From NCBI RefSeq assembly GCF_035984415.1, contig NZ_CP130720.1:7626001-7690000 (forward strand): a stretch of DNA of 64,000 nucleotides. The letters are read 5' to 3'. The notes beneath the pieces are model-generated. The model made no database searches, had not been told where the DNA came from, and saw nothing but the letters and a program-made list of their open reading frames with translations. Below are positions 22,630-33,906 of the stretch, piece after piece (position 1 is the stretch's first letter; each line of letters opens with the position of its first letter). Source of the stretch: Streptomyces sp. NBC_01296. GTDB lineage: Bacteria > Actinomycetota > Actinomycetes > Streptomycetales > Streptomycetaceae. A program made the position numbers and the translations under genes.

Positions 22630-23592
22630 TCAGGCCCCCGCGTCCAGGTGCCGGGCCAGGAACGCGACGCTCCCCGCGACGATCGCGGGGATGTCGGGGG
22701 AGCCGAGGAAGATGTGGTCGGCGCCCTCCACGGGCTGCAGCGTCACCTCACCCCCCGCGCCCGTCAGTGCCTCGGCGAGGGCCTCGCTCTGGCTGTACGG
22801 GACGAGCCCGTCCGCGGTCCCGTGCACCAGCAGGAACGGCGGCGGGTTCGAGCCCGGGACGGCGTACGTGACCGGGCTCGCGGCCCGGGCCGGCTCCGCC
22901 TGCTCGGCCGCGGGTACGCCCAGCAGGGCGTCGTACGGGTTGGGGAACTCGGCGCCGGTCGGCATCGGCAGCGGGTGCGCGGCCAGGGCGGGCAGGTCGT
23001 GGACCCCGTACCAGTCGACGACGGCCAGGACGTCGGTGTCGCCGGAGCCGACGCCGTGGGCACCCTCCAGTGCCGCCAGGGTCCCGGAGTCCGTGCTGCC
23101 GGGGCGGACGAGGCCGGCGAGCGCGGCCAGGTGGCCGCCCGCCGACTCGCCCCAGACGCCGATCCGGTCCGGGTCGATGCCGAGGGCGGGGGCGAACTGC
23201 CGTACGTAGCGGATGGCGGCCTTGACGTCGTGCAGCTGCGCGGGGAACGGGGCCTCGAGGCTGTGCCGGTAGTCGATGGAGACGAGCGCGAGCCCGGCGC
23301 CGAGGACGGCGCCGTGCAGCAGGGCGGCGGGCACGGTCGGCGGCGGGTAGCGGCGGTCGCCGTCCAGCCAGCCGCCGCCGTGGATCCAGACGACCGCCGG
23401 GAAGGGGCCCTCGCCCGCGGGGAGCTGTACGTCGAGGAGGCGGGGGCGGTAGCCCGGGGTGGTCGCGTAGGTGATCCCGTCGAAGCGGCGTATGCCGTCC
23501 GCGCCGGTCACGGGCGCGACGGGCTGCCGGTACGGCGGGGGTGGCCAGGTCATGTCGGCGATGTCGAACTCGGCCGGGGGAGACTGCGTCAT
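22630..23592 (-). CDS. Alpha/beta hydrolase (HSL-type esterase)
   Basis: A 320-residue esterase/lipase of the hormone-sensitive-lipase group. It has the oxyanion motif HGGGW, the elbow GESAGGH with the nucleophile Ser, and a C-terminal LVHGTADGLVPYSQSEA segment holding the acid and leading to the His in ADHIF. No signal peptide is seen. Its upstream region has LacI-type site C 120 bp before the start. Confidence 0.88.
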   Translation of the reverse strand: MTQSPPAEFDIADMTWPPPPYRQPVAPVTGADGIRRFDGITYATTPGYRPRLLDVQLPAGEGPFPAVVWIHGGGWLDGDRRYPPPTVPAALLHGAVLGAGLALVSIDYRHSLEAPFPAQLHDVKAAIRYVRQFAPALGIDPDRIGVWGESAGGHLAALAGLVRPGSTDSGTLAALEGAHGVGSGDTDVLAVVDWYGVHDLPALAAHPLPMPTGAEFPNPYDALLGVPAAEQAEPARAASPVTYAVPGSNPPPFLLVHGTADGLVPYSQSEALAEALTGAGGEVTLQPVEGADHIFLGSPDIPAIVAGSVAFLARHLDAGA

Positions 23593-24422: not shown

Positions 24423-24465
24423 ATATCGAGCAACGTTGACGGACGTAAAAATATCGAGATAACTT
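24423..24465 (+). promoter_or_regulatory. PaaX-type promoter/operator before the CoA ligase
   Basis: ATATCGAG at 24423-24430, -35 TTGACG at 24436-24441, -10 TAACTT at 24460-24465 (18-bp spacer). A second ATATCGAG copy (24451-24458) lies inside the spacer just before the -10, which would let a bound repressor block polymerase. Confidence 0.72.
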
Positions 24466-24508: not shown

Positions 24509-26695
24509 ATGGAGCTCTCCCCTTCCGCCCACGCCGACCCCTTCTGCAGGGACCGGCTGCCGGCCTTCCCCCTCTGGCCCGAACTCCACTTCGATCTCCC
24601 GGAGTTGGCCTACCCCGACCGCCTCAACTGCGCCGGACGCCTGCTCGACGATGCCGTCGAGCGCTGGGGCGCCGACCGCACCTGTCTGCTGACCCCGACC
24701 GAGCGCTGGACCTACGGCGAGCTCCAGCAGCGCGCCAACCAGGTCGCCCAGGTCCTCACCGAGGACTTCGGCCTCGTCCCCGGCAACCGCGTCCTGCTGC
24801 GCGCCCCCAACAACCCCTGGCTCGTGGCCGCCTGGTTCGGCGTCCTCAAGGCCGGCGGCGTCGCCGTCACGACGATGCCGCTGCTGCGCGCCGCCGAACT
24901 CGCCGAGCTGTGCGAGATCAGCCGCCCCACCGTCGCCGTGTGCGACCACCGCTACGTCGACGAGCTCGCCGCGGCCGCCGGCCAGGGCCTCGCCGGCCAG
25001 GGCCTCGCCGGCCTGCCGGTTCTCGCCTACGGCGGCCCCGGGGTCATGGACCTGACCGCGCGCTGCGCGGCCAAGAGCGGCGTGTTCGCCACCGTCCCCA
25101 CCGCCGCGGACGACGTGGCGCTGATCGCCTTCACCTCGGGTACGACCGGGCGCCCCAAGGCGACCCTGCACTTCCACCGCGACGTGCTCGCCAACGCGGA
25201 CACGTTCTCGCGGCACGTGCTGAAGCCGCGCCCCGACGACGTCTTCACGGGTACGCCGCCGCTCGCCTTCACCTTCGGCCTCGGAGGGCTCGTGGTCTTC
25301 CCGCTGCACGTCGGGGCCGCGACCCTGCTGATCGAGCAGGCGACCCCGGAGCAGCTGGCCGACCTCGTCGCCGAGCACGGCGTGAGCGTGCTGTTCACCG
25401 CGCCCACCGCCTACCGCGCGATCATGGCGGCCGGGGCAGTGGGCCGACTGGCCGGGCTGCGCCGCTGCGTGTCCGCCGGAGAGGCGCTGCCCGCCGCCGT
25501 GTGGGAGGAGTTCCACGCCGCCACCGGACTGCGCATCATCGACGGCATCGGCGCCACCGAGATGCTGCACGTCTTCATCTCCGCCGCCGACGGGGACATC
25601 CGGCCCGGTGCCACGGGCCGGCCCGTGCCCGGGTACCGCGCCGCCGTGGTGGACCAGTACGGCGAACCCGTCCCCGACGGGCAGCCCGGCCTGCTGGCGG
25701 TCACCGGACCCACCGGCTGCCGCTACCTCGCGGATCCGCGCCAGACGGCGTACGTGAGGAACGGCTGGAACATCACCGGCGACACCTACATCCGCGATGC
25801 CGACGGCTATTTCTGGTACGTGGCCCGCAGCGACGACATGATCGTCTCCTCCGGCTACAACATCGCGGGCCCGGAGGTCGAGAAGGCCCTCGTCGCCCAT
25901 CCGTACGTCGAGGAGTGCGGGGTCGTCGGCGCCCCCGACGACCGGCGCGGCATGCTGGTCAAGGCGTACGTCGTGCTCGGCGCCGGTGTGCCGGCGGACG
26001 AGGCGACGGCCCGTGAGCTGCAGGCCCACGTCAAGGGGGCCATCGCCCCGTACAAGTACCCGCGTGCCGTCGAGTTCGTCACACGGCTCCCGCGCACCGG
26101 CAACGGAAAGCTCCAGCGCGGCGAGCTGCGCGAGTGGGCCCGCTCCGCCGCCGAGGCCCCGGCCCCGGCCCGGATCCCGGCCCCCGCCCCCGCCCCGGCC
26201 GAAGCCGGGACCGGCGCCGACGGCGGCTGCGCCGCCGGCTGCCCCGAGGCCCTCGTTCCGCACCTGCCCAGCGTGGTCGTCGAGCGCCGCGTCGAGTGGC
26301 CCGACACCGACGCCGCCGGGCACTACCACCACTCCACCGTCGTGCGCTGGGTCGAGGCGGCCGAGGCCGTGCTGCTGCGCCGCCTGGGCCTGGCACACCT
26401 CTTCGGCAGCACCCCCCGCGTCCACTTCGAGGCCGACTACCGGGCCCGGCTCTGGTTCGGCGAGGCCGTGCGCATCGAGCTGAGCGTCGCCAAGGTCGGC
26501 GCCAGCTCCCTGCACTACGTGTTCACGGTCCACGGCGAGGGGGACGTGGAGGCCGCCGCCGGGCGGATGGTCATCGCCCACTCCGCCTCCCGTGCGACCG
26601 GGACCACGCCCTGGCCCGCCGACGTACGCGAGGTGCTGACGAAGTCGGGCCCCCAGGCACCGGAACTCCTCACGAGGGATATCGAGCATTGTTGA
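24509..26695 (+). CDS. Fused aryl-CoA ligase / thioesterase
   Basis: A 728-residue two-domain enzyme. Residues 1-545 are an AMP-forming aryl-CoA ligase of the benzoate-CoA ligase type (FTSGTTGRPK near 210, GATEM, YVARSDDMIVSSGYNI, and the C-terminal catalytic Lys534 in TGNGKLQRG). An Ala/Pro-rich linker (about 545-580) leads to a hot-dog thioesterase (590-720) of the 4-hydroxybenzoyl-CoA type (WPDTDAAGHYHHSTVVRWVE). With a salicylyl-CoA-type hydroxylase and gentisate dioxygenase downstream, the ligase should activate salicylate and the thioesterase free gentisate from gentisyl-CoA, so steps 1 and 3 sit on one polypeptide. The ATG at 24509 fits; an in-frame GTG lies at 24494. Confidence 0.88.
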   Translation: MELSPSAHADPFCRDRLPAFPLWPELHFDLPELAYPDRLNCAGRLLDDAVERWGADRTCLLTPTERWTYGELQQRANQVAQVLTEDFGLVPGNRVLLRAPNNPWLVAAWFGVLKAGGVAVTTMPLLRAAELAELCEISRPTVAVCDHRYVDELAAAAGQGLAGQGLAGLPVLAYGGPGVMDLTARCAAKSGVFATVPTAADDVALIAFTSGTTGRPKATLHFHRDVLANADTFSRHVLKPRPDDVFTGTPPLAFTFGLGGLVVFPLHVGAATLLIEQATPEQLADLVAEHGVSVLFTAPTAYRAIMAAGAVGRLAGLRRCVSAGEALPAAVWEEFHAATGLRIIDGIGATEMLHVFISAADGDIRPGATGRPVPGYRAAVVDQYGEPVPDGQPGLLAVTGPTGCRYLADPRQTAYVRNGWNITGDTYIRDADGYFWYVARSDDMIVSSGYNIAGPEVEKALVAHPYVEECGVVGAPDDRRGMLVKAYVVLGAGVPADEATARELQAHVKGAIAPYKYPRAVEFVTRLPRTGNGKLQRGELREWARSAAEAPAPARIPAPAPAPAEAGTGADGGCAAGCPEALVPHLPSVVVERRVEWPDTDAAGHYHHSTVVRWVEAAEAVLLRRLGLAHLFGSTPRVHFEADYRARLWFGEAVRIELSVAKVGASSLHYVFTVHGEGDVEAAAGRMVIAHSASRATGTTPWPADVREVLTKSGPQAPELLTRDIEHC

Positions 26696-26721
26696 CGGTC
26701 GCCAAATCTGAACCATATGTT
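26679..26721 (+). promoter_or_regulatory. PaaX-type promoter/operator before the hydroxylase
   Basis: ATATCGAG (26679-26686), -35 TTGACG (26692-26697) and -10 TATGTT (26716-26721) with an 18-bp spacer, as at 17181 and 24423. The element overlaps the last codons and stop of the ligase gene (26695), so the hydroxylase operon has an internal promoter of its own. Confidence 0.7.
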
Positions 26722-26747
26722 GTTCCGGAACCACGAGGAGGTACGCC

Positions 26748-29051
26748 GTGCGCGTAGCAGTCATCGGAGGAGGGCCCGGCGGGCTGTACTTCGCAGCCCT
26801 GGCCAAGCAGCTCTCCCCCCACTGGGACGTCACCGTCTGGGAGCGGGGCGCCCCCGACGACACGTTCGGCTTCGGGGTCGTCTTCTCCGACGAGACCCTC
26901 GACGGCATCGCGCAGGCCGACCCCGAGGTCTATGCGGCCATGTCGGCGGAGTTCGCCCGCTGGAGCGACATCGACGTCACCCACCGGCGCCGGACCCTCA
27001 CCTCCGGCGGCCACGGCTTCGCCGCCCTCGGCCGCCGGCAGCTGCTGCGGATCCTCCAGGAGCGCTGCGCCGCCCTCGCGGTGGACGTCCGCTACCGCAC
27101 GCAGGCCCCGCCCGCCGCCGAGCTGGCGGCCGCGTACGACCTCGTCGTCGCCTGCGACGGCGTACGGTCGGCCACCCGCGCCGCCTACGCGGACTCCTTC
27201 GGGCCCGACCTGGACGAACGCTCCGGCCGCTACATGTGGCTCGGCACGGACAAGGTCTTCGAGGCCTTCACCTTCCTCGTCGAGGAGCGGGACTTCGGCA
27301 CCCTCCAGGTGCACGCCTACCCCTACGACTCCACCCGCTCCACGTTCATCGTGGAGATGGACGAGGCCGCCTGGCGGCGCGCGGGCTTCGCGCAGTTCGC
27401 GGACCGCGACCACCCGCCCGGCACCAGCGACACGGACAGCATCCGCCGCTGCGAGGAGATACTCGCCGGCCATCTGGACGGGCACCGGCTCCTGCCCAAC
27501 AACTCCAAGTGGCTGCGCTTCACCACCGTGCGCAACCGCTCCTGGCGGCACGAGAACGTCGTCCTCCTCGGGGACGCCGCCCACACCGCCCACTTCTCCA
27601 TCGGCTCCGGCACCAAGCTGGCCATGGAGGACGCCCTCGCGCTGGCGGCCTGCCTGCACGAGCACCCGGACGTGCCCGGCGCGCTCGCCGCGTACGAGGA
27701 AGAGCGCCGCCCGGTCGTGGAATCGACCCAGCGCGCCGCCCAGGCCAGCCTCGAGTGGTTCGAGAACATCGGCCGCTACACGAGTCAGGAACCGCCCCAG
27801 TTCGCGTTCAACCTGCTGACCCGCAGCCGCCGCGTCACCTACGACAACCTGCGCGTGCGCGACGAGGAGTTCACCACCATCGTCAACTCCTCCGCTCCGG
27901 TGCCCCCGATGTTCCGCCCCTTCCCGCTCGGCGGGCTGCTCCTGCGCAACCGGGTCGTCGTGCCGCCCACCGCCCTCGGCACGGCGCGCGACGGCATCCC
28001 GGGGGACTTCGACCTCGTCCACCTGAGCACCCAGGCGCTCGGCGGCTCCGGCCTGGTGCTCGCCGGGATGACCGCCGTCAGCGCCGAAGGCCGGGACGCC
28101 CCCGGCTGCCCCGGCCTCTACACCGACGAACAGGAAGCCGCCTGGCGGCGGATCACCGACTTCGTCCACGGCCAGTGCGACACCTGCCTCGGCATCCAGC
28201 TCACCCACGCCGGCCGCCGCGCCGGTACCGGGGACGGTCCGCCGATCGCCGCGTCCGCCCTGGCCTGGGACGAGCGCAGCCCGGCCCCGCGCGAGGCCAC
28301 CCGGGCCGATATGGACCTTCTCGTACGGGACTTCGTCCGCGCGGCCCGACGCGCCGACCGGGCGGGCTTCGACGTGCTGGAACTGCAGTACGGGCATGGC
28401 CAGCTGCTGTCCGGGTTCCTCTCGCCGCTGACCAACCTGCGCACCGACGCGTACGGCGGCGACCTCGCCGGGCGGCTGCGCTTCCCGCTGGAAGTGTTGG
28501 ACGCCGTAAGGGCGGTGTGGCCCGCCGGCAAGGCCCTGCTCGTCCGGATCTCCGCGGCCGACTGGGCCGAGGGCGGGCTGACCGAGGCCGACGCCGTGGC
28601 CATCGCCCGCGCCCTCGCCGAGGCCGGCGCCGACGGGATCGACGTCTCCACCGGCGAGGTCGTCGCCCACGAGCGGCCCCGCTACGGGCGCAGCTACCAG
28701 ACCCCGTACGCCGATCTGATCCGCAACGCCACCGGGGTCCCCACGATCGCCGTCGGTGCGATCTCCACGTACGACGACGTGAACTCGATCGTCCTGGCCG
28801 GCCGGGCCGACCTCTGCGGGGTGGGCCGCGCCCAGCTGCACGACCCGCTCTGGACCCTGCACGCCGCGGCCGCCCAGGGCTACCACGGGCCCGCCGCCCC
28901 GTGGGCCCCCTCCTGGAAGGCGGGCAGCGGCAGACCGCCCGCCGCCCGCACCGACCGGGTCCCGCCGCGCCTGCAGCTGTTGCGGCAGCCCGCCGCGCCG
29001 GTGCACCAGCGCTGGCTGCCGCGCCTCGCCGCCACCGCGCCGGCCAACTGA
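26748..29051 (+). CDS. Salicylyl-CoA 5-hydroxylase-type monooxygenase/OYE fusion
   Basis: A 767-residue bifunctional flavoenzyme. Residues 1-380 are an FAD aromatic hydroxylase (AVIGGGPGGLYFAAL at 3, LLGDAAHTAHFSIGSG near 280). From about 385 a second domain follows that is an old-yellow-enzyme-type NADH:flavin oxidoreductase (FRPFPLGGLLLRNRVVVPP, LELQYGHGQLLSGFLSP). This two-part layout is known in salicylyl-CoA 5-hydroxylases and 2-aminobenzoyl-CoA monooxygenase/reductases. Gentisate dioxygenase downstream favours salicylyl-CoA to gentisyl-CoA with NADH and O2. The OYE half may supply reduced flavin or reduce the ring; that is not decided here. Confidence 0.87.
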   Translation: MRVAVIGGGPGGLYFAALAKQLSPHWDVTVWERGAPDDTFGFGVVFSDETLDGIAQADPEVYAAMSAEFARWSDIDVTHRRRTLTSGGHGFAALGRRQLLRILQERCAALAVDVRYRTQAPPAAELAAAYDLVVACDGVRSATRAAYADSFGPDLDERSGRYMWLGTDKVFEAFTFLVEERDFGTLQVHAYPYDSTRSTFIVEMDEAAWRRAGFAQFADRDHPPGTSDTDSIRRCEEILAGHLDGHRLLPNNSKWLRFTTVRNRSWRHENVVLLGDAAHTAHFSIGSGTKLAMEDALALAACLHEHPDVPGALAAYEEERRPVVESTQRAAQASLEWFENIGRYTSQEPPQFAFNLLTRSRRVTYDNLRVRDEEFTTIVNSSAPVPPMFRPFPLGGLLLRNRVVVPPTALGTARDGIPGDFDLVHLSTQALGGSGLVLAGMTAVSAEGRDAPGCPGLYTDEQEAAWRRITDFVHGQCDTCLGIQLTHAGRRAGTGDGPPIAASALAWDERSPAPREATRADMDLLVRDFVRAARRADRAGFDVLELQYGHGQLLSGFLSPLTNLRTDAYGGDLAGRLRFPLEVLDAVRAVWPAGKALLVRISAADWAEGGLTEADAVAIARALAEAGADGIDVSTGEVVAHERPRYGRSYQTPYADLIRNATGVPTIAVGAISTYDDVNSIVLAGRADLCGVGRAQLHDPLWTLHAAAAQGYHGPAAPWAPSWKAGSGRPPAARTDRVPPRLQLLRQPAAPVHQRWLPRLAATAPAN

Positions 29052-29061
29052 GGAGACCCTG

Positions 29062-30096
29062 ATGCAGACCCCGTCCCCGAACCGCCCGCCCCTGCACCAC
29101 CTGCCCCGCTTCACGGCGGCGGCCGTCCAGGCCTCGCCCGTCTACCTGGACCCCGCCGCCACTGTCGACAAGGCCGTCGCGCTGATCGCCGAGGCGGCCG
29201 CGAACGGCGCCGAACTCGTCGTCTTCCCCGAGGTGTTCGTCCCCGGCTACCCCTACTGGAACTGGACGATGAACCCCGTCCAGGGCTCGCCCTGGTTCGA
29301 GCGACTCCAGCGCGCCTCGGTCGACATCCCCGGCCCGTACGTCGACACCCTGCGCGCGGCGGCCCGCCAGTACGGGGTCGTCCTCGTCATCGGCGTCAAC
29401 GAGCGCGCCGCGCACAGCCTCGGCGTCCTCTACAACACCCTGCTCACCATCGGACCCGACGGCGGACTCCTCGGCATCCACCGCAAGCTGGTGCCCACCT
29501 GGGCCGAGAAGCTCACCTGGACCGGCGGCGACGGCAGCTCCCTGCGGGTCCACCCCACCCCCGTCGGCCCGCTCGGCGCCCTCGCCTGCGGCGAGAACAC
29601 CAACACGCTGGCCCGCTTCACCCTCCTCGCGCAGGGCGAACTGGTCCACGCCTCCTGCTACATCGCCCTGCCCGTGGCCCCGGCCGACTACGACATGGCC
29701 GACGCCATCGCCGTCCGCACCGCCGCCCACAGCTTCGAGGGCAAGGTCTTCTCCGTCGTCGCCTGCTCCACCGTCTCCCCGGAGATCGTGGACCTGCTCG
29801 CCGGGGACGACGAGGAGCTGCGCGCCCTGTTCCAGCGGCCCCGCAGCGCCCTGTCCGGGATCTTCGGCCCCGACGGCCGCCCCGTCACCGAACCGCTCGT
29901 CGACGACGAGGGCATCGTCTACGGCGAGATCGACCTCGGCCGCTGCATCCAGCCCAAGCAGATGCACGACATCACCGGCCACTACAACCGCTTCGACATC
30001 TTCCGCCTCGAAGTCGACAACCGCCCCCGCCTGCCGGTGACCTTCACCGCGCCGCCCGCGGGCCCCCAGATCACCACGCCTGAGGAGGACGTATGA
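29062..30096 (+). CDS. Nitrilase-family carbon-nitrogen hydrolase
   Basis: A 344-residue nitrilase-superfamily enzyme with the Glu-Lys-Cys triad: Glu57 in VVFPEVFVPGYPYW, Lys142 in HRKLVPTWAEKLTW and Cys176 in LGALACGENTN. The length and the GYPYW and CGEN forms match true nitrilases (nitrile to carboxylic acid and ammonia). It starts 10 bp after the hydroxylase and overlaps the gentisate dioxygenase by ATGA, so it is a member of the operon. It may feed an aromatic nitrile (such as a hydroxybenzonitrile) into the acid pathway. Confidence 0.87.
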   Translation: MQTPSPNRPPLHHLPRFTAAAVQASPVYLDPAATVDKAVALIAEAAANGAELVVFPEVFVPGYPYWNWTMNPVQGSPWFERLQRASVDIPGPYVDTLRAAARQYGVVLVIGVNERAAHSLGVLYNTLLTIGPDGGLLGIHRKLVPTWAEKLTWTGGDGSSLRVHPTPVGPLGALACGENTNTLARFTLLAQGELVHASCYIALPVAPADYDMADAIAVRTAAHSFEGKVFSVVACSTVSPEIVDLLAGDDEELRALFQRPRSALSGIFGPDGRPVTEPLVDDEGIVYGEIDLGRCIQPKQMHDITGHYNRFDIFRLEVDNRPRLPVTFTAPPAGPQITTPEEDV

Positions 30097-31229
30097 CCAC
30101 CCCGCAGGACGACACCATGCTCGGCCGCGCCCGGGTCTTCGACACCCCCGAGCTCACCGCGTACTACGGCGAGCTCGAAGCCCTGGACGCCGGCGCGCTG
30201 TGGACCGTCGCCAACGACATCGAACCCTGGTACCCGCAGCCCAAGTCGGTTCCCGTGCTGTGGCGCTACGAGGAGCTGCGGCCCCTGGTCCACAAGGCCC
30301 TCGGCATGGTCAAGGCCGACGACGCCGGCCGGCGCGTCGTGATGCTCGTCAACCCCGGCCGCAAGGACGTCAGCGCCGCCGCCGGGCTCCTCTACACCGG
30401 GCTCCAGATCATGGGCCCCGGCGAGGCGATGACCGCCCACCGCCACCAGGCCGCCGCCCTGCGCTTCGTCCACGAGGGCACCGGCGCCTGGACCGTCGTC
30501 GACGGCCAGAAGCTGAAGGTCGGCCCGCGCGATTTCGCGATCACGCCCAACGGCACCTGGCACGAGCACGGCAACGACGCCGAGGACGCCCCCGTCATCT
30601 GGCAGGACGGCCTCGACATCCCCCTCGTCAACGCCCTGGACGCCGGGTTCTACGAGGTCCACCCCGAGCTCCACCAGACGCCCGGCAAGGTGGTCAACTC
30701 CTCCGTGCTCCAGTACAGCGCGAACCTGCTCCCGTACGGCTCGGAGCGGTGGAGCCGGCCCTACTCACCGCTGCTCGCCTACCCCTGGGAGCCCACGTAC
30801 GAGGCCCTGCTGGGCCTCGCGAAGGCGAGCGAGGGCTCCCCGTACGACGGGATCATCGCCGAGTACACCAACCCGGTCACGGGCGGCTCCGTGATGCCCA
30901 CCATGGGCGCCCACATGCAGCTGCTGCGCCCCGGGCAGGCCACCCGCGCCCACCGGCACACCGGCTCGGTGATCTACACGGCCGCCAAGGGGCACGGGGT
31001 CTCGGTCATCGCCGGGCAGCGCTTCGCATGGCGCCAGGGCGACATCTTCTGCGTCCCCTCCTGGGCCTGGCACGAGCACCACAACCTCGACCAGTCCGAG
31101 GACGCCTGCCTGTTCTCCTTCAACGACTTCCCGGTCATGCGCTCGCTCGGCTTCCACCGCGAAGAGGCGTATCCGGACAACGACGGCCACCAGCCGATGC
31201 CGGCCGCCGCCCCGACCGCCACCGCCTGA
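30093..31229 (+). CDS. Gentisate 1,2-dioxygenase
   Basis: A 378-residue bicupin that opens the ring of gentisate with O2 to give maleylpyruvate, using Fe(II). The first cupin (about 100-180) carries the metal ligands in MTAHRHQAAALRFVHEG and a later WHEHGND; the second (about 275-345) has THAHRHTG-like TRAHRHTGSVIY and WAWHEHHN. The length and both HxH patterns are typical. It overlaps the nitrilase by 4 bp and is followed by the hydrolase and maleate isomerase. Confidence 0.9.
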   Translation: MTTPQDDTMLGRARVFDTPELTAYYGELEALDAGALWTVANDIEPWYPQPKSVPVLWRYEELRPLVHKALGMVKADDAGRRVVMLVNPGRKDVSAAAGLLYTGLQIMGPGEAMTAHRHQAAALRFVHEGTGAWTVVDGQKLKVGPRDFAITPNGTWHEHGNDAEDAPVIWQDGLDIPLVNALDAGFYEVHPELHQTPGKVVNSSVLQYSANLLPYGSERWSRPYSPLLAYPWEPTYEALLGLAKASEGSPYDGIIAEYTNPVTGGSVMPTMGAHMQLLRPGQATRAHRHTGSVIYTAAKGHGVSVIAGQRFAWRQGDIFCVPSWAWHEHHNLDQSEDACLFSFNDFPVMRSLGFHREEAYPDNDGHQPMPAAAPTATA

Positions 31230-31246
31230 CCCCGAGGAGCCCCACC

Positions 31247-32164
31247 ATGCGTCTGCTGACCTTCACCACCGCCGCCGCCACCGGCGAGGCCGCCCCCCGC
31301 CTCGGCGCCGACGTCGACGGCCTCGTCCTCGACCTCGGGGTCCTGGCCGACCACGCCGGCGTGGACCTCCCGCGCGATCTGCTCGCGTTCGTCCAGGCGG
31401 GCCCCACCGCCCGGGAGGCCGCCCGCCGCCTCGTCGACGCCGACCCCGCCGCCCGCCCGGCGGGGGCCGTCCACCGGCTCGAAGACGTCACCCTCGCCGC
31501 CCCGCTGCGCCCCGGCAAGATCATCGGGGTCGGCCTCAACTACGTGGAGCACGTCGAGGAGTCCAGCCGCAGCCTGGACACCGACAAGGAACTCCCGCCC
31601 CGCCCCGTGCTGTTCAGCAAGCCCGCCACCGCCGTCACCGGCCCCGGCGCGCCCATCCTGCACAACGGGGACCTCACGCAGCAGCTCGACTGGGAGTGCG
31701 AACTCGCCGTCGTCATCGGCCGCACCGCGTTCCGGGTGAGCGAGGAGGACGCGTACGACCACATCTTCGGCTTCAGCATCGTCAACGACATCAGCGCCCG
31801 CGACCAGCGCCGCTCCGGCCAGTGGTTCTTCTCCAAGGGGCAGGACTCGTACGCGCCGTTGGGCCCGGTGGTGGTCACGGCGGACGAGATCCCCGACCCC
31901 ATGGTCCTGGACCTCTCGCTGCGCGTCAACGGCGTCACCAAGCAGAAGTCGAACACCCGGCACATGCTGTTCCCGATCGCCCGCCTCATCGCCGACATCA
32001 GCTCCGGCGTGACCCTGGAGCCCGGCGACGTCATCGCCACGGGATCGCCCTCCGGCGTCGGCGCCGGCATGGTGCCGCCGGAGTTCCTGGTCCCCGGTGA
32101 CACGGTCGAGGCGACCGTCGAGCGCATCGGCACCCTGGCCAACCCCGTCGTCGACGCCCGCTGA
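31247..32164 (+). CDS. FAH-family acylpyruvate hydrolase
   Basis: A 305-residue fumarylacetoacetate-hydrolase-family enzyme. The C-terminal domain shows GKIIGVGLNYVEHVEES, WECELAVVIG (metal-binding Glu), FSIVNDISARDQR and DVIATGSPSGVGAG. In this operon it should split maleylpyruvate or fumarylpyruvate into pyruvate and maleate or fumarate. Since a maleate isomerase follows and no maleylpyruvate isomerase is present, direct hydrolysis of maleylpyruvate to maleate plus pyruvate is the simpler reading. The ATG at 31247 follows a GAGGAG site. Confidence 0.88.
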   Translation: MRLLTFTTAAATGEAAPRLGADVDGLVLDLGVLADHAGVDLPRDLLAFVQAGPTAREAARRLVDADPAARPAGAVHRLEDVTLAAPLRPGKIIGVGLNYVEHVEESSRSLDTDKELPPRPVLFSKPATAVTGPGAPILHNGDLTQQLDWECELAVVIGRTAFRVSEEDAYDHIFGFSIVNDISARDQRRSGQWFFSKGQDSYAPLGPVVVTADEIPDPMVLDLSLRVNGVTKQKSNTRHMLFPIARLIADISSGVTLEPGDVIATGSPSGVGAGMVPPEFLVPGDTVEATVERIGTLANPVVDAR

Positions 32165-32198
32165 TCCCCGTACGCCCAGCAAGCACCGAGGAGCACCC

Positions 32199-32978
32199 GT
32201 GCCGCCCCGCACCTACCGCATCGGCCAGATCGTGCCGAGCTCGAACGTGACCATGGAGACCGAGGTCCCCGCCATCCTGCGCGCCCGCCAGGCGGTCCTG
32301 CCCGACGAGAGGTTCACCTTCCACTCCAGCCGGATGCGCATGACCCATGTGACACCGGAACAGCTCAAGGCCATGGACGCCGACTCCGACCGCTGCGCCG
32401 TGGAACTGTCCGACGCCCGGGTCGACGTGCTCGGCTACGCCTGCCTGGTCGCCATCATGAGCATGGGCCTCGGCTACCACCGCACCTCCGAGCAGCGGCT
32501 GCACACCCGTACGGTCGAGAACGGCGCCCCCGCCCCTGTCGTCACCAGCGCGGGCGCCCTCGTCCACGGACTGCACACCATCGGCGCCCGCAAGATCGCG
32601 CTGCTCGCCCCGTACATGCGCCCGCTGACGCGGACCGTCGTGGACTACCTCACCCACGAGGGCATCGAGGTACTCGACTACGAGGCCCTCGAAATCCCGG
32701 ACAACCTCGACGTGGCCGCCCACGACCCGGCCGAGCTGCCCGGTCTCGCCCGCGCGCTGGACTACGCGGACGCCGACGCGGTCGTGCTCTCCGCCTGCGT
32801 GCAGATGCCCTCCCTGGGCGCCATCGAGGAGGCCGAACAGCTCCTGGGCAAGCCGGTGGTGTCGGCGGCCGTCTGCACCGCCCACCAGATGCTGCGCGCC
32901 CTCGACCTGCCGGCGGTGGCCCCGGGGGCGGGACACCTGCTCTCCGGCGCGTATGCGGAGGCCCCGCTGCCGCAGTAG
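32199..32978 (+). CDS. Maleate isomerase (Asp/Glu racemase superfamily)
   Basis: A 259-residue maleate cis-trans isomerase. The catalytic pair fits: Cys82 in LGYACLVAIMSMG and Cys200 in VLSACVQMPSLG, equivalent to the two Cys residues known in this family; SSNVTMETEV near the N-terminus is a typical signature. It converts maleate to fumarate for the TCA cycle. The GTG start has GAGGAG upstream. It is the last catabolic gene before a terminator and the PaaX-like regulator. Confidence 0.9.
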   Translation: MPPRTYRIGQIVPSSNVTMETEVPAILRARQAVLPDERFTFHSSRMRMTHVTPEQLKAMDADSDRCAVELSDARVDVLGYACLVAIMSMGLGYHRTSEQRLHTRTVENGAPAPVVTSAGALVHGLHTIGARKIALLAPYMRPLTRTVVDYLTHEGIEVLDYEALEIPDNLDVAAHDPAELPGLARALDYADADAVVLSACVQMPSLGAIEEAEQLLGKPVVSAAVCTAHQMLRALDLPAVAPGAGHLLSGAYAEAPLPQ

Positions 32979-33072: not shown

Positions 33073-33906
33073 ATGTCGGACAGCCCCCTCAGGCCCAGCT
33101 CGTTGATCAACACGGTCTACGGAGCGTTCCTGCGCCGCCTCGGCGGCTGGATCTCCATCGCGGACCTGATCACGCTGATGGGCGAGCTGGACGTCGACGG
33201 CCCGGCGGTGCGGTCGGCGATCTCGCGGCTCAAGAAGCGCGGCGTCCTCGAACCGGAGCGCCGGGGTGCCACCGGCTACCGGCTCAGCCCGGCCGTGCAC
33301 CCCGTCTTCGACGAGGGCGACCGCCGCATCTTCGCCAGCCTCGAACCCGCCGACCTGGCCGACGGCTGGGCCATGGCGGTGTTCTCCGTACCGGAGTCCG
33401 AGCGCTCCCACCGCTACCAGCTGCGCACCCGGCTGACCTGGCTCGGCTTCGGCAACATAGCCCCGGGCGTGTGGCTGGCCCCGGGGCGGCTGCTCGAAGA
33501 CGCCCGCGGCATGCTCGTACGGCTCGGCCTCAGCGAGTACGTGCACCTGTTCGCCGCCGACTACGCCGCCTTCAGCGACCTGGCGCAGACGGTGAGCGAG
33601 TGGTGGGACTTCCCGGCGATCCAGACGCAGTACGCGGCCTTCACCGACACCTACGCCCCCGTCGCCGAGCGCCTCGCGGCCGAGGGGGAGCCCGGCCCGG
33701 CGGAGGCGTTCCGCCACTACGTGCCGCTGCTCACGCAGTGGCGCCGCCTGCCGTACCTCGACCCGGGCCTGCCGACCGAACTCCTGCCGGCCGACTGGAA
33801 CGCGGTGGCCGCCCGCCAGGTCTTCCAGCAGCTCCACGCGGTCCTGCTGGACCCGAGCCTGCACCACGTCCGGGAGGTCACGGGCCTGGAGGCGGACACC
33901 GCCTAG
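33073..33906 (+). CDS. PaaX family transcriptional repressor
   Basis: A 277-residue PaaX-like regulator: a winged helix in residues 5-75 (SLINTVYGAFLRRLGGWISI, then DGPAVRSAISRLKKRGVLEP) and a PaaX C-terminal domain (WAMAVFSVPESERSHRYQLR, LTWLGFGNIAPGVWLAPG). Known PaaX represses phenylacetate genes and is released by phenylacetyl-CoA; by analogy an aryl-CoA such as salicylyl-CoA could be the ligand here. ATG 33073 follows GGAAGG. Its stop codon forms one CTAG with the stop of the convergent lipoprotein gene. Confidence 0.88.
   Translation: MSDSPLRPSSLINTVYGAFLRRLGGWISIADLITLMGELDVDGPAVRSAISRLKKRGVLEPERRGATGYRLSPAVHPVFDEGDRRIFASLEPADLADGWAMAVFSVPESERSHRYQLRTRLTWLGFGNIAPGVWLAPGRLLEDARGMLVRLGLSEYVHLFAADYAAFSDLAQTVSEWWDFPAIQTQYAAFTDTYAPVAERLAAEGEPGPAEAFRHYVPLLTQWRRLPYLDPGLPTELLPADWNAVAARQVFQQLHAVLLDPSLHHVREVTGLEADTA

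Follow-up and report, generated by a model that had tools for sequence, protein, structure and literature searches.

A putative anthranilate operon of Streptomyces in which a CoA ligase is fused to a hotdog thioesterase

Introduction

A branch of anthranilate breakdown that passes through 5-hydroxyanthranilate and gentisate has been described (PMC4539516). In the excerpts of this literature used here, Nocardia opaca reaches gentisate via 5-hydroxyanthranilate and Alcaligenes does so starting from indole (PMC6221969, PMC4539516), and the enzyme and genes of the branch from anthranilate to gentisate were stated to be unreported as of 2018 (PMC6221969). A salicylyl-coenzyme A (CoA) and gentisyl-CoA pathway is on record for Streptomyces sp. 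WA46 (Ishiyama et al. 2004, as cited in excerpts of a review). Here we analysed an operon at positions 24509-32978 of the forward strand of a 64,000-nucleotide stretch, hereafter the window, of Streptomyces sp. NBC_01296 (contig NZ_CP130720.1, positions 7,626,001 to 7,690,000). A previous inspection of the DNA letters, here called the original prediction, had taken this operon for a complete salicylate-gentisate-fumarate route in which the ligase is fused to the thioesterase.

The nearest system with an assayed ligase is that of Arthrobacter sp. Rue61a on plasmid pAL1. Anthranilate-CoA activity was reported for this ligase, and the excerpts of the same paper state that the strain grows on anthranilate and not on salicylate or gentisate (PMC3534580). 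The Rue61a cluster resembles the window operon in its ligase (61% identity), its hydroxylase (60%), its PaaX-type regulators, an FAH protein and a separate hotdog protein. It differs in that the ligase and the hotdog protein are unfused and the reductase half of the hydroxylase is intact. Moreover, it has a small cupin, a RidA protein and another acyl-CoA thioesterase, whereas the window has a C-N hydrolase, a bicupin dioxygenase and a maleate isomerase. The WA46 pathway, which is likened here by description only, shares CoA ligation, 5-hydroxylation of the CoA ester and gentisate 1,2-dioxygenase with the operon, but the excerpts of its review description name no C-N hydrolase, maleate isomerase or fusion.

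The neighbourhood of the Ruegeria pomeroyi dioxygenase with the solved structure 3bu7 has a C-N hydrolase, the dioxygenase, an FAH hydrolase and an Asp/Glu racemase-type isomerase in identical order. However, ligase and hydroxylase genes do not adjoin there, and IorAB, thioesterase and MarR genes are found instead. The lower nicotinate and nicotine pathway likewise ends with the conversion of maleamate to maleate and then fumarate. In that route maleamate is cut by an isochorismatase-fold amidase, whereas the candidate in the window is a C-N hydrolase of the nitrilase branch.

Among thioesterases, BH1999 of Bacillus halodurans is a gentisyl-CoA thioesterase whose gene belongs to a gentisate cluster, and fusion proteins with hotdog domains are known (PMC516016). 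One of them, from Ralstonia, differs from the window fusion in that it combines the hotdog with two AMP-binding domains and belongs to another subfamily; the excerpts of that paper describe no benzoate-type CoA ligase that carries a hotdog at its C-terminus (PMC516016). The literature searches were not aimed at this fusion, and we do not present it as new. We found no assignment of the operon genes among the titles and abstract openings of the matches listed or in excerpts of the open-licence literature on the intermediates, the C-N hydrolase combination and the isatin and indole routes.

Results

Gene content and proposed route

The operon consists of six genes on one strand, as read from the open reading frames (ORFs) and from Pfam and NCBIfam scans, by which the family of each operon protein was assigned. 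They encode, in order, a ligase-hotdog fusion, a hydroxylase, a C-N hydrolase, a bicupin dioxygenase, an FAH-family hydrolase and a maleate isomerase, and are followed by the gene of a PaaX-type regulator (Table 1). The original prediction had described five genes. Its fusion, monooxygenase, dioxygenase, FAH hydrolase and maleate isomerase do lie on one strand, but its list for a whole route was incomplete, as neither the C-N hydrolase nor the PaaX-type regulator appeared in it, and the hydroxylase was given without its old-yellow-enzyme half. No maleylpyruvate isomerase was found among the seven operon proteins scanned with Pfam and NCBIfam.

We consider it rather likely that this is an anthranilate (2-aminobenzoate) operon and not a salicylate operon. 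The ligase domain would convert anthranilate to anthraniloyl-CoA, the flavin adenine dinucleotide (FAD) monooxygenase half of the hydroxylase would hydroxylate C5 to give 5-hydroxyanthraniloyl-CoA, which would still be aromatic, and the fused hotdog domain would free 5-hydroxyanthranilate and return the CoA. The gentisate-type cupin dioxygenase would then cut the ring between C1 and C2. Because C2 bears the amino group, the product of this cleavage would be the amide of maleylpyruvate and not the acid. With an amide, the FAH hydrolase would yield pyruvate and maleamate, so that the C-N hydrolase would be needed to convert maleamate to maleate and ammonia, and the cis acid would need the maleate isomerase to become fumarate. 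If gentisate were the substrate, no C-N hydrolase would be needed. We infer these substrates and activities from the genes present; the gene context argues for 5-hydroxyanthranilate as the substrate of the dioxygenase and for an amide as that of the C-N hydrolase.

Conservation of the C-N hydrolase with the dioxygenase

The best 80 of 292 hydroxylase relatives were taken as loci with their flanks. The gene order of the window was present in 22 of them, designated clade A (L001-L019 and L021-L023, of which L007 had no PaaX match), and the stretches of the remaining 58 did not hold the C-N hydrolase and the bicupin dioxygenase. When 297 Streptomycetaceae genomes were searched with the dioxygenase, matches occurred in 99 and a full-length match of at least 76% in 49. 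These matches of at least 76% provided 50 further loci; the window's own locus and a fragmented match (G075) were omitted, and two genomes had two copies. In all, clade A comprised 72 loci, 69 of them with distinct dioxygenase sequences.

In every one of the 72 loci, the C-N hydrolase gene lay on the same strand as the dioxygenase gene and within 2.5 kb of it. As a remote contrast set, we used 13-kb stretches around nine gentisate-dioxygenase genes (37-46% identity), together with L174; the C-N hydrolase and the maleate isomerase were found in none of the nine. One of these remote loci (L183) shows the expected canonical gentisate arrangement, with a mycothiol maleylpyruvate isomerase alongside a hydroxylase that lacks the reductase half. 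In L174, the dioxygenase is 61-64% identical, the other genes of the block are absent from the stretch and a pyridoxal-dependent decarboxylase-like ORF is located just 5'.

The nearest solved chains of the C-N hydrolase are nitrilases, and its Glu-Lys-Cys triad (E57, K142 and C176) is invariant in 74 C-N hydrolases of such blocks. The dioxygenase is a bicupin with metal-binding His motifs aligned to those of 3bu7, and its score with the gentisate 1,2-dioxygenase model TIGR02272 (322.3 bits) is below the cut-off of 442.1. A total of 25 alignment columns separate the block dioxygenases from canonical ones, and they offer no clear reading of the substrate. The isomerase is nearest to 4fq7, which we take to be the isomerase of the nicotine route of P. 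putida S16, and both Cys residues are aligned (C85 and C203, in a numbering that starts three residues early).

Substrate clues from the ligase

The ligase scored 368.9 bits with the benzoate-CoA ligase model TIGR02262 and the hydroxylase 1036.4 bits with the salicylyl-CoA 5-hydroxylase model NF006101. Both scores are just under the cut-offs (375.25 and 1078), and neither name is therefore assured. The top PDB match of the ligase was an anthranilate-CoA ligase (4wv3, 301 bits); benzoate-CoA ligases reached at most 274 bits and salicylate-adenosine monophosphate (AMP) ligases, among the matches listed, at most 134. Since the nearest assayed relative among the ligases compared is the anthranilate-CoA ligase of Rue61a (ARUE_113p00220, which we took as ARUE_RS22905 from its position before the hydroxylase gene), the ligase domain is likely an anthranilate-CoA ligase.

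Degeneration of the reductase half of the hydroxylase

The hydroxylase combines an FAD monooxygenase (PF01494) and an old-yellow-enzyme domain (PF00724) in one protein. The name salicylyl-CoA 5-hydroxylase does not discriminate between substrates, because the Rue61a hydroxylase is annotated likewise. Ring reduction by the aminobenzoyl-CoA monooxygenase/reductases is ascribed to their second domain. In the window, Q547, H550 and Q552 occupy the positions aligned, by way of solved relatives, to what we take to be the His-His-Tyr set of YqjM-type enzymes. We observed that the first His was replaced by Gln in 69 of 70 sequences (68 clade A loci, the window and L020) and the last Tyr by His, Gln or Arg in all 70. 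In contrast, His in the first and Tyr in the last position were kept in 57 of 57 sequences of another group, clade B. With these catalytic residues lost, the product would stay aromatic, and a degenerate reductase half fits an aromatic product from anthranilate and salicylate alike.

Plasmid relatives L081-L084 keep both the His and the Tyr, and two of them (L082 and L083) are accompanied by beta-oxidation genes; a tryptophan dioxygenase lies near L082 and L084, with a kynureninase also near L084. The beta-proteobacterial hydroxylases that are linked to a block dioxygenase (L087 and L089) share the first change and keep the Tyr. In the 57 clade B stretches, isatin hydrolase was found eight times, tryptophan dioxygenase twice and kynureninase once. 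Sister clusters (L081, 9149-16062; L030; L050) hold an FAH protein, a small cupin, a RidA protein, another acyl-CoA thioesterase and an intact hydroxylase/reductase, and their small cupin and RidA may represent another lower route that handles nitrogen.

The lower-pathway block outside Streptomycetaceae

Occurrence beyond Streptomycetaceae was judged on plasmids alone, because a search for the C-N hydrolase across the phylum (396 genomes, E 1e-80) gave, apart from the window's genome itself, a single match, at 50%. Of 69 plasmid records with a dioxygenase match, the 25 listed were considered, 17 of them at 55% identity or more; the loci did not include three records from Novosphingobium and one of the two from Leisingera. 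Seven of the proteobacterial plasmid loci that we examined have both the C-N hydrolase and the dioxygenase (L086-L088, L090, L093, L187 and L188). In all seven, these two genes form one block with those of the FAH hydrolase and the isomerase, and in two of them the order is dioxygenase, FAH, hydrolase and isomerase, which is the proposed metabolic order. Among the matches listed, a hydrolase of at least 64% was nearby in nine of the 17 records.

The company of these plasmid blocks includes IorAB in five of the seven stretches and isatin hydrolase in three. The Caballeronia stretch carries IorA, IorB, thioesterase, hydroxylase, dioxygenase, FAH, C-N hydrolase and isomerase genes, a MarR gene on the opposite strand and an isatin hydrolase gene, whose product matches the solved isatin hydrolase 5nmp with 461 bits. 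By converting isatinate, which is a 2-oxo acid, to anthraniloyl-CoA, IorAB could take over the part of the ligase. According to excerpts of the respective papers, IorA and IorB also occur in the iad loci of auxin degradation, which yield anthranilate (PMC9613470), and a nine-gene region of Variovorax, iadC-K2, suffices for anthranilate without IorAB (iadAB) (PMC12633357).

Two actinobacterial blocks, L172 and L186 (Embleya sp. NBC_00888), have no ligase or hydroxylase in the stretch and have kynureninase and tryptophan dioxygenase genes within 5 kb. The L172 kynureninase passes the NCBI cut-off, whereas the tryptophan dioxygenase of L172 falls short of its own (279.5 of 390.7 bits) and passes only that of Pfam; the tryptophan dioxygenase of L186 was identified by tblastn only. 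The genome of L172 carries a full operon elsewhere (L136). At both loci, the missing hydroxylase could be explained if 5-hydroxyanthranilate came straight from 5-hydroxykynurenine through the action of kynureninase.

It is tempting to see in these loci a cross-phylum 5-hydroxyanthranilate module, which we put forward tentatively, at somewhat short of an even chance. In this module, 5-hydroxyanthranilate would be cleaved directly to the amide, the FAH hydrolase would give maleamate and the nitrilase-branch enzyme would be the maleamate amidase. The feeds would be anthranilate (via the ligase or IorAB and a hydroxylase with a dead reductase half), isatin, or 5-hydroxykynurenine via kynureninase; the fusion would be a repeatedly evolved front end, and the whole would be the missing gene set of the 5-hydroxyanthranilate/gentisate branch.

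Some other loci depart from the full block. On three plasmids (L190, L091 and L189), the C-N hydrolase that accompanies related dioxygenase-FAH pairs is a different one (36-37%), perhaps a substitute amide hydrolase in the same place, and two of the three also have a flavin reductase. A Cupriavidus taiwanensis plasmid (L089) keeps the hydroxylase, dioxygenase and FAH genes, with hydrolase and isomerase unmatched and insertion elements on both sides. Yinghuangia L165 is a nearly full cluster with the isomerase missing from its stretch. A second Yinghuangia locus, L020, was considered as an operon without thioesterase, hydrolase and dioxygenase and was dropped; it decides nothing, because it is a partial second copy in the genome that has L165.

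Recurrence of the ligase-thioesterase fusion

The original prediction was borne out in placing the ligase and the thioesterase in one polypeptide. Both domains are in one ORF of 728 aa (24509-26695), with PF00501 at 257 bits, PF13193 at 85 bits and PF13279 at residues 595-709 (42.2 bits, E 1.3e-10). D599, T600 and D601 were invariant across 28 hotdog sequences, and the catalytic Asp presumably lies within this motif. In the 22 clade A hydroxylase loci, ligase and hotdog were one ORF in 10 and two adjoining ORFs in 12. Among the 69 distinct clade A loci, 46 were fused, 22 had adjacent separate genes and one had no ligase. Because it is present in 46 of these 69 relatives, the fusion is real and not a sequencing artefact. 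The fusion is common for this operon in Streptomycetaceae, so that the possibility of a routine architecture, raised with the original prediction as a point that would speak against it, is borne out in part.

The linker between the two domains was 5-99 aa among the fused relatives. A tree with 67 rows was built from the hydroxylase, the C-N hydrolase and the dioxygenase by a quick search without a mixture model. The state changed between fused and split at least five times on it, and a single fused clade was rejected (approximately unbiased test, p-AU 0.0002). The fusion was therefore gained repeatedly or lost repeatedly. The split state was basal on a rooted FastTree to which the ligase was added, with three clade B loci as the outgroup.

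The hotdog domain is expected to hydrolyse 5-hydroxyanthraniloyl-CoA. The fusion would be useful only if the thioesterase spares the ester that is not yet hydroxylated, or if the hydroxylase docks on the fusion. We make no claims on pockets or interfaces, because the AlphaFold2 model of the fusion was too weak (mean predicted local distance difference test (pLDDT) 66.5, predicted template modelling score (pTM) 0.38; pLDDT below 50 at residues 551-583). The question posed by the fusion is why a maker of thioesters should be coupled to a destroyer of thioesters, and more than once.

Promoter elements and neighbouring genes

Exact copies of the element ATATCGAGCA-NN-GTTGACGG lie in front of the fusion gene and, further along, across its stop codon ahead of the hydroxylase gene (Table 1). 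The search in relatives was for a TTGAC-bearing match with up to 7 of 18 mismatches. Upstream of the ligase start, at a distance of 76-87 nt, 53 of 68 loci have such a match, among them all 22 split loci and 31 of the 46 fused ones (0.3% in shuffles). At 67-75 nt upstream of the hydroxylase start, it is present in 20 of the 22 split loci but in only 10 of the 46 fused ones (0.15% in shuffles). Fused loci thus tend to lack the inner promoter, a tendency confounded by shared ancestry. The PaaX-type regulator probably controls the two promoters, with the elements as putative operators to which it may bind. On the minus strand at 22630-23592, an alpha/beta hydrolase gene (BD-FAE/Abhydrolase_3) precedes the operon; it is present in the stretches of 31 of the 69 distinct clade A loci and could encode an upper-pathway esterase or formamidase.

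Table 1. Features of the operon region (positions in the window)
Feature	Position	Strand	Evidence or remark
Promoter element ATATCGAGCA-NN-GTTGACGG	24423..24442	+	exact match; 5' of fusion gene; -35-like TTGACG inside
Second AAATATCGAG copy	24449-24458	+	repeat
CoA ligase domain, fusion residues 1-545	24509..26143	+	PF00501/PF13193; TIGR02262 368.9 bits; 4wv3; 61% to Rue61a ligase
Pro/Ala-rich linker, about residues 546-586	26144..26266	+	variable length in relatives; low pLDDT
4HBT-type hotdog thioesterase domain, motif DTDAAGH (D599-D601)	26267..26695	+	PF13279
Second promoter element copy, overlapping fusion-gene stop codon	26679..26698	+	exact match
Putative bifunctional aryl-CoA 5-hydroxylase: FAD monooxygenase half and old-yellow-enzyme half (residues 388-706)	26748..29051	+	NF006101; PF01494 and PF00724
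C-N hydrolase, nitrilase branch, 344 aa; proposed maleamate (or maleamylpyruvate) amidase	29062..30096	+	PF00795 130.7 bits
Bicupin gentisate-type 1,2-dioxygenase; proposed 5-hydroxyanthranilate 1,2-dioxygenase	30093..31229	+	TIGR02272 322.3 bits; 3bu7 520.8 bits
FAH-family acylpyruvate hydrolase; proposed maleamylpyruvate hydrolase	31247..32164	+	PF01557 238.5 bits
Maleate cis-trans isomerase	32199..32978	+	4fq7 347.7 bits
PaaX-type transcriptional regulator, candidate operon repressor	33073..33906	+	PF07848/PF20803/PF08223

Discussion

Several observations weigh against the anthranilate route proposed here. The C-N hydrolase falls in the nitrilase branch and not in an amidase branch, so that its action as an amidase is an assumption. 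No orthologous hydrolase was among the matches listed for eight of the 17 plasmid dioxygenase records at 55% or more; of the five inspected, three have the different C-N hydrolase in the stretch and two have none. Kynureninase and tryptophan dioxygenase were found in no clade A stretch that holds ligase and hydroxylase, and only L172 has them. Kynureninase is present in 291 of the 297 family genomes, and its co-occurrence at the genome level is therefore uninformative. To our knowledge, no dioxygenase has been demonstrated to cleave 5-hydroxyanthranilate in this way, and the 5-nitrosalicylate dioxygenase does not accept this compound, as stated in an excerpt of its description. In excerpts of older work on anthranilate and indole in other genera, gentisate itself was an intermediate (PMC6221969, PMC4539516), which counts against a route that bypasses gentisate. 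Two further points speak at the same time for salicylate, namely the NCBI name of the nearest hydroxylase model, salicylyl-CoA 5-hydroxylase, and the identity of the Ruegeria block dioxygenase with 3bu7, a structure whose deposited name is gentisate 1,2-dioxygenase.

In the route from salicylate, salicylyl-CoA, gentisyl-CoA, gentisate, maleylpyruvate and maleate would follow one another on the way to fumarate, and the C-N hydrolase would be an accessory, supplying for example the acid from an aromatic nitrile. Apart from the two points just given, the reported CoA route from salicylate to gentisate in Streptomyces sp. WA46, known to us through excerpts, is in its favour, and the degenerate reductase half suits it as it would suit any aromatic product. 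However, this route does not account for the constant pairing of the C-N hydrolase with the dioxygenase in clade A, or for the company that the block keeps with kynureninase and tryptophan dioxygenase or with isatin hydrolase and IorAB. The remote gentisate-dioxygenase loci do without the hydrolase and the maleate isomerase, and the nearest assayed ligase is an anthranilate enzyme. We therefore regard salicylate as an unlikely substrate. What the original prediction had said of CoA-dependent 5-hydroxylation and gentisate-type ring cleavage fits the genes; its choice of salicylate as the likeliest substrate is not supported, and 2-aminobenzoate, which it had named as the finding that would speak against it, is favoured by the gene context and the nearest assayed ligase.

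It is also conceivable, though rather improbable, that the C-N hydrolase is a true nitrilase and acts on, for example, 2-aminobenzonitrile or 2-hydroxybenzonitrile to supply the aromatic acid, with the lower pathway starting from either acid. The grouping of its sequence with nitrilases and the invariant catalytic Glu, Lys and Cys agree with this. Yet the hydrolase is kept in blocks without ligase or hydroxylase in the stretch (L093, L172, L186 and L188), where an upper-pathway nitrilase has no obvious place. The hydroxylase is 60% identical to the Rue61a protein, which brings to mind the reaction proposed for the latter, the classical 2-aminobenzoyl-CoA monooxygenase/reductase route, in which the ring is reduced to 2-amino-5-oxocyclohexenecarboxyl-CoA before beta-oxidation. 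This reductive route is ruled out, with very little probability left to it, by the altered catalytic residues of the reductase half and by the gene content, as the operon has no beta-oxidation genes and has a ring-cleaving dioxygenase, and the clusters that do have beta-oxidation genes (L082 and L083) keep the residues. A similar logic of ligase, hydroxylase, thioesterase and gentisate dioxygenase is known from Brevibacillus and some archaea, where 4-hydroxybenzoyl-CoA is hydroxylated with migration of the side chain (the NIH shift) to gentisyl-CoA. Here such a route is scarcely credible, since the nearest assayed or proposed relatives that we found are anthranilate proteins.

If the anthranilate route is correct, the genes of the 5-hydroxyanthranilate/gentisate branch proposed in the 1960s-1980s would have been found, and the branch would be present in 49 of the 297 sampled Streptomycetaceae genomes and on roseobacter, rhizobial and burkholderial plasmids. 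In these organisms, direct cleavage that forms an amide would replace gentisate. The automatic name salicylyl-CoA 5-hydroxylase would have to be corrected for many proteins, and the nitrilase-type family would gain a role. Finally, the breakdown of tryptophan, of isatin and perhaps of auxin would be tied to a new route to fumarate.

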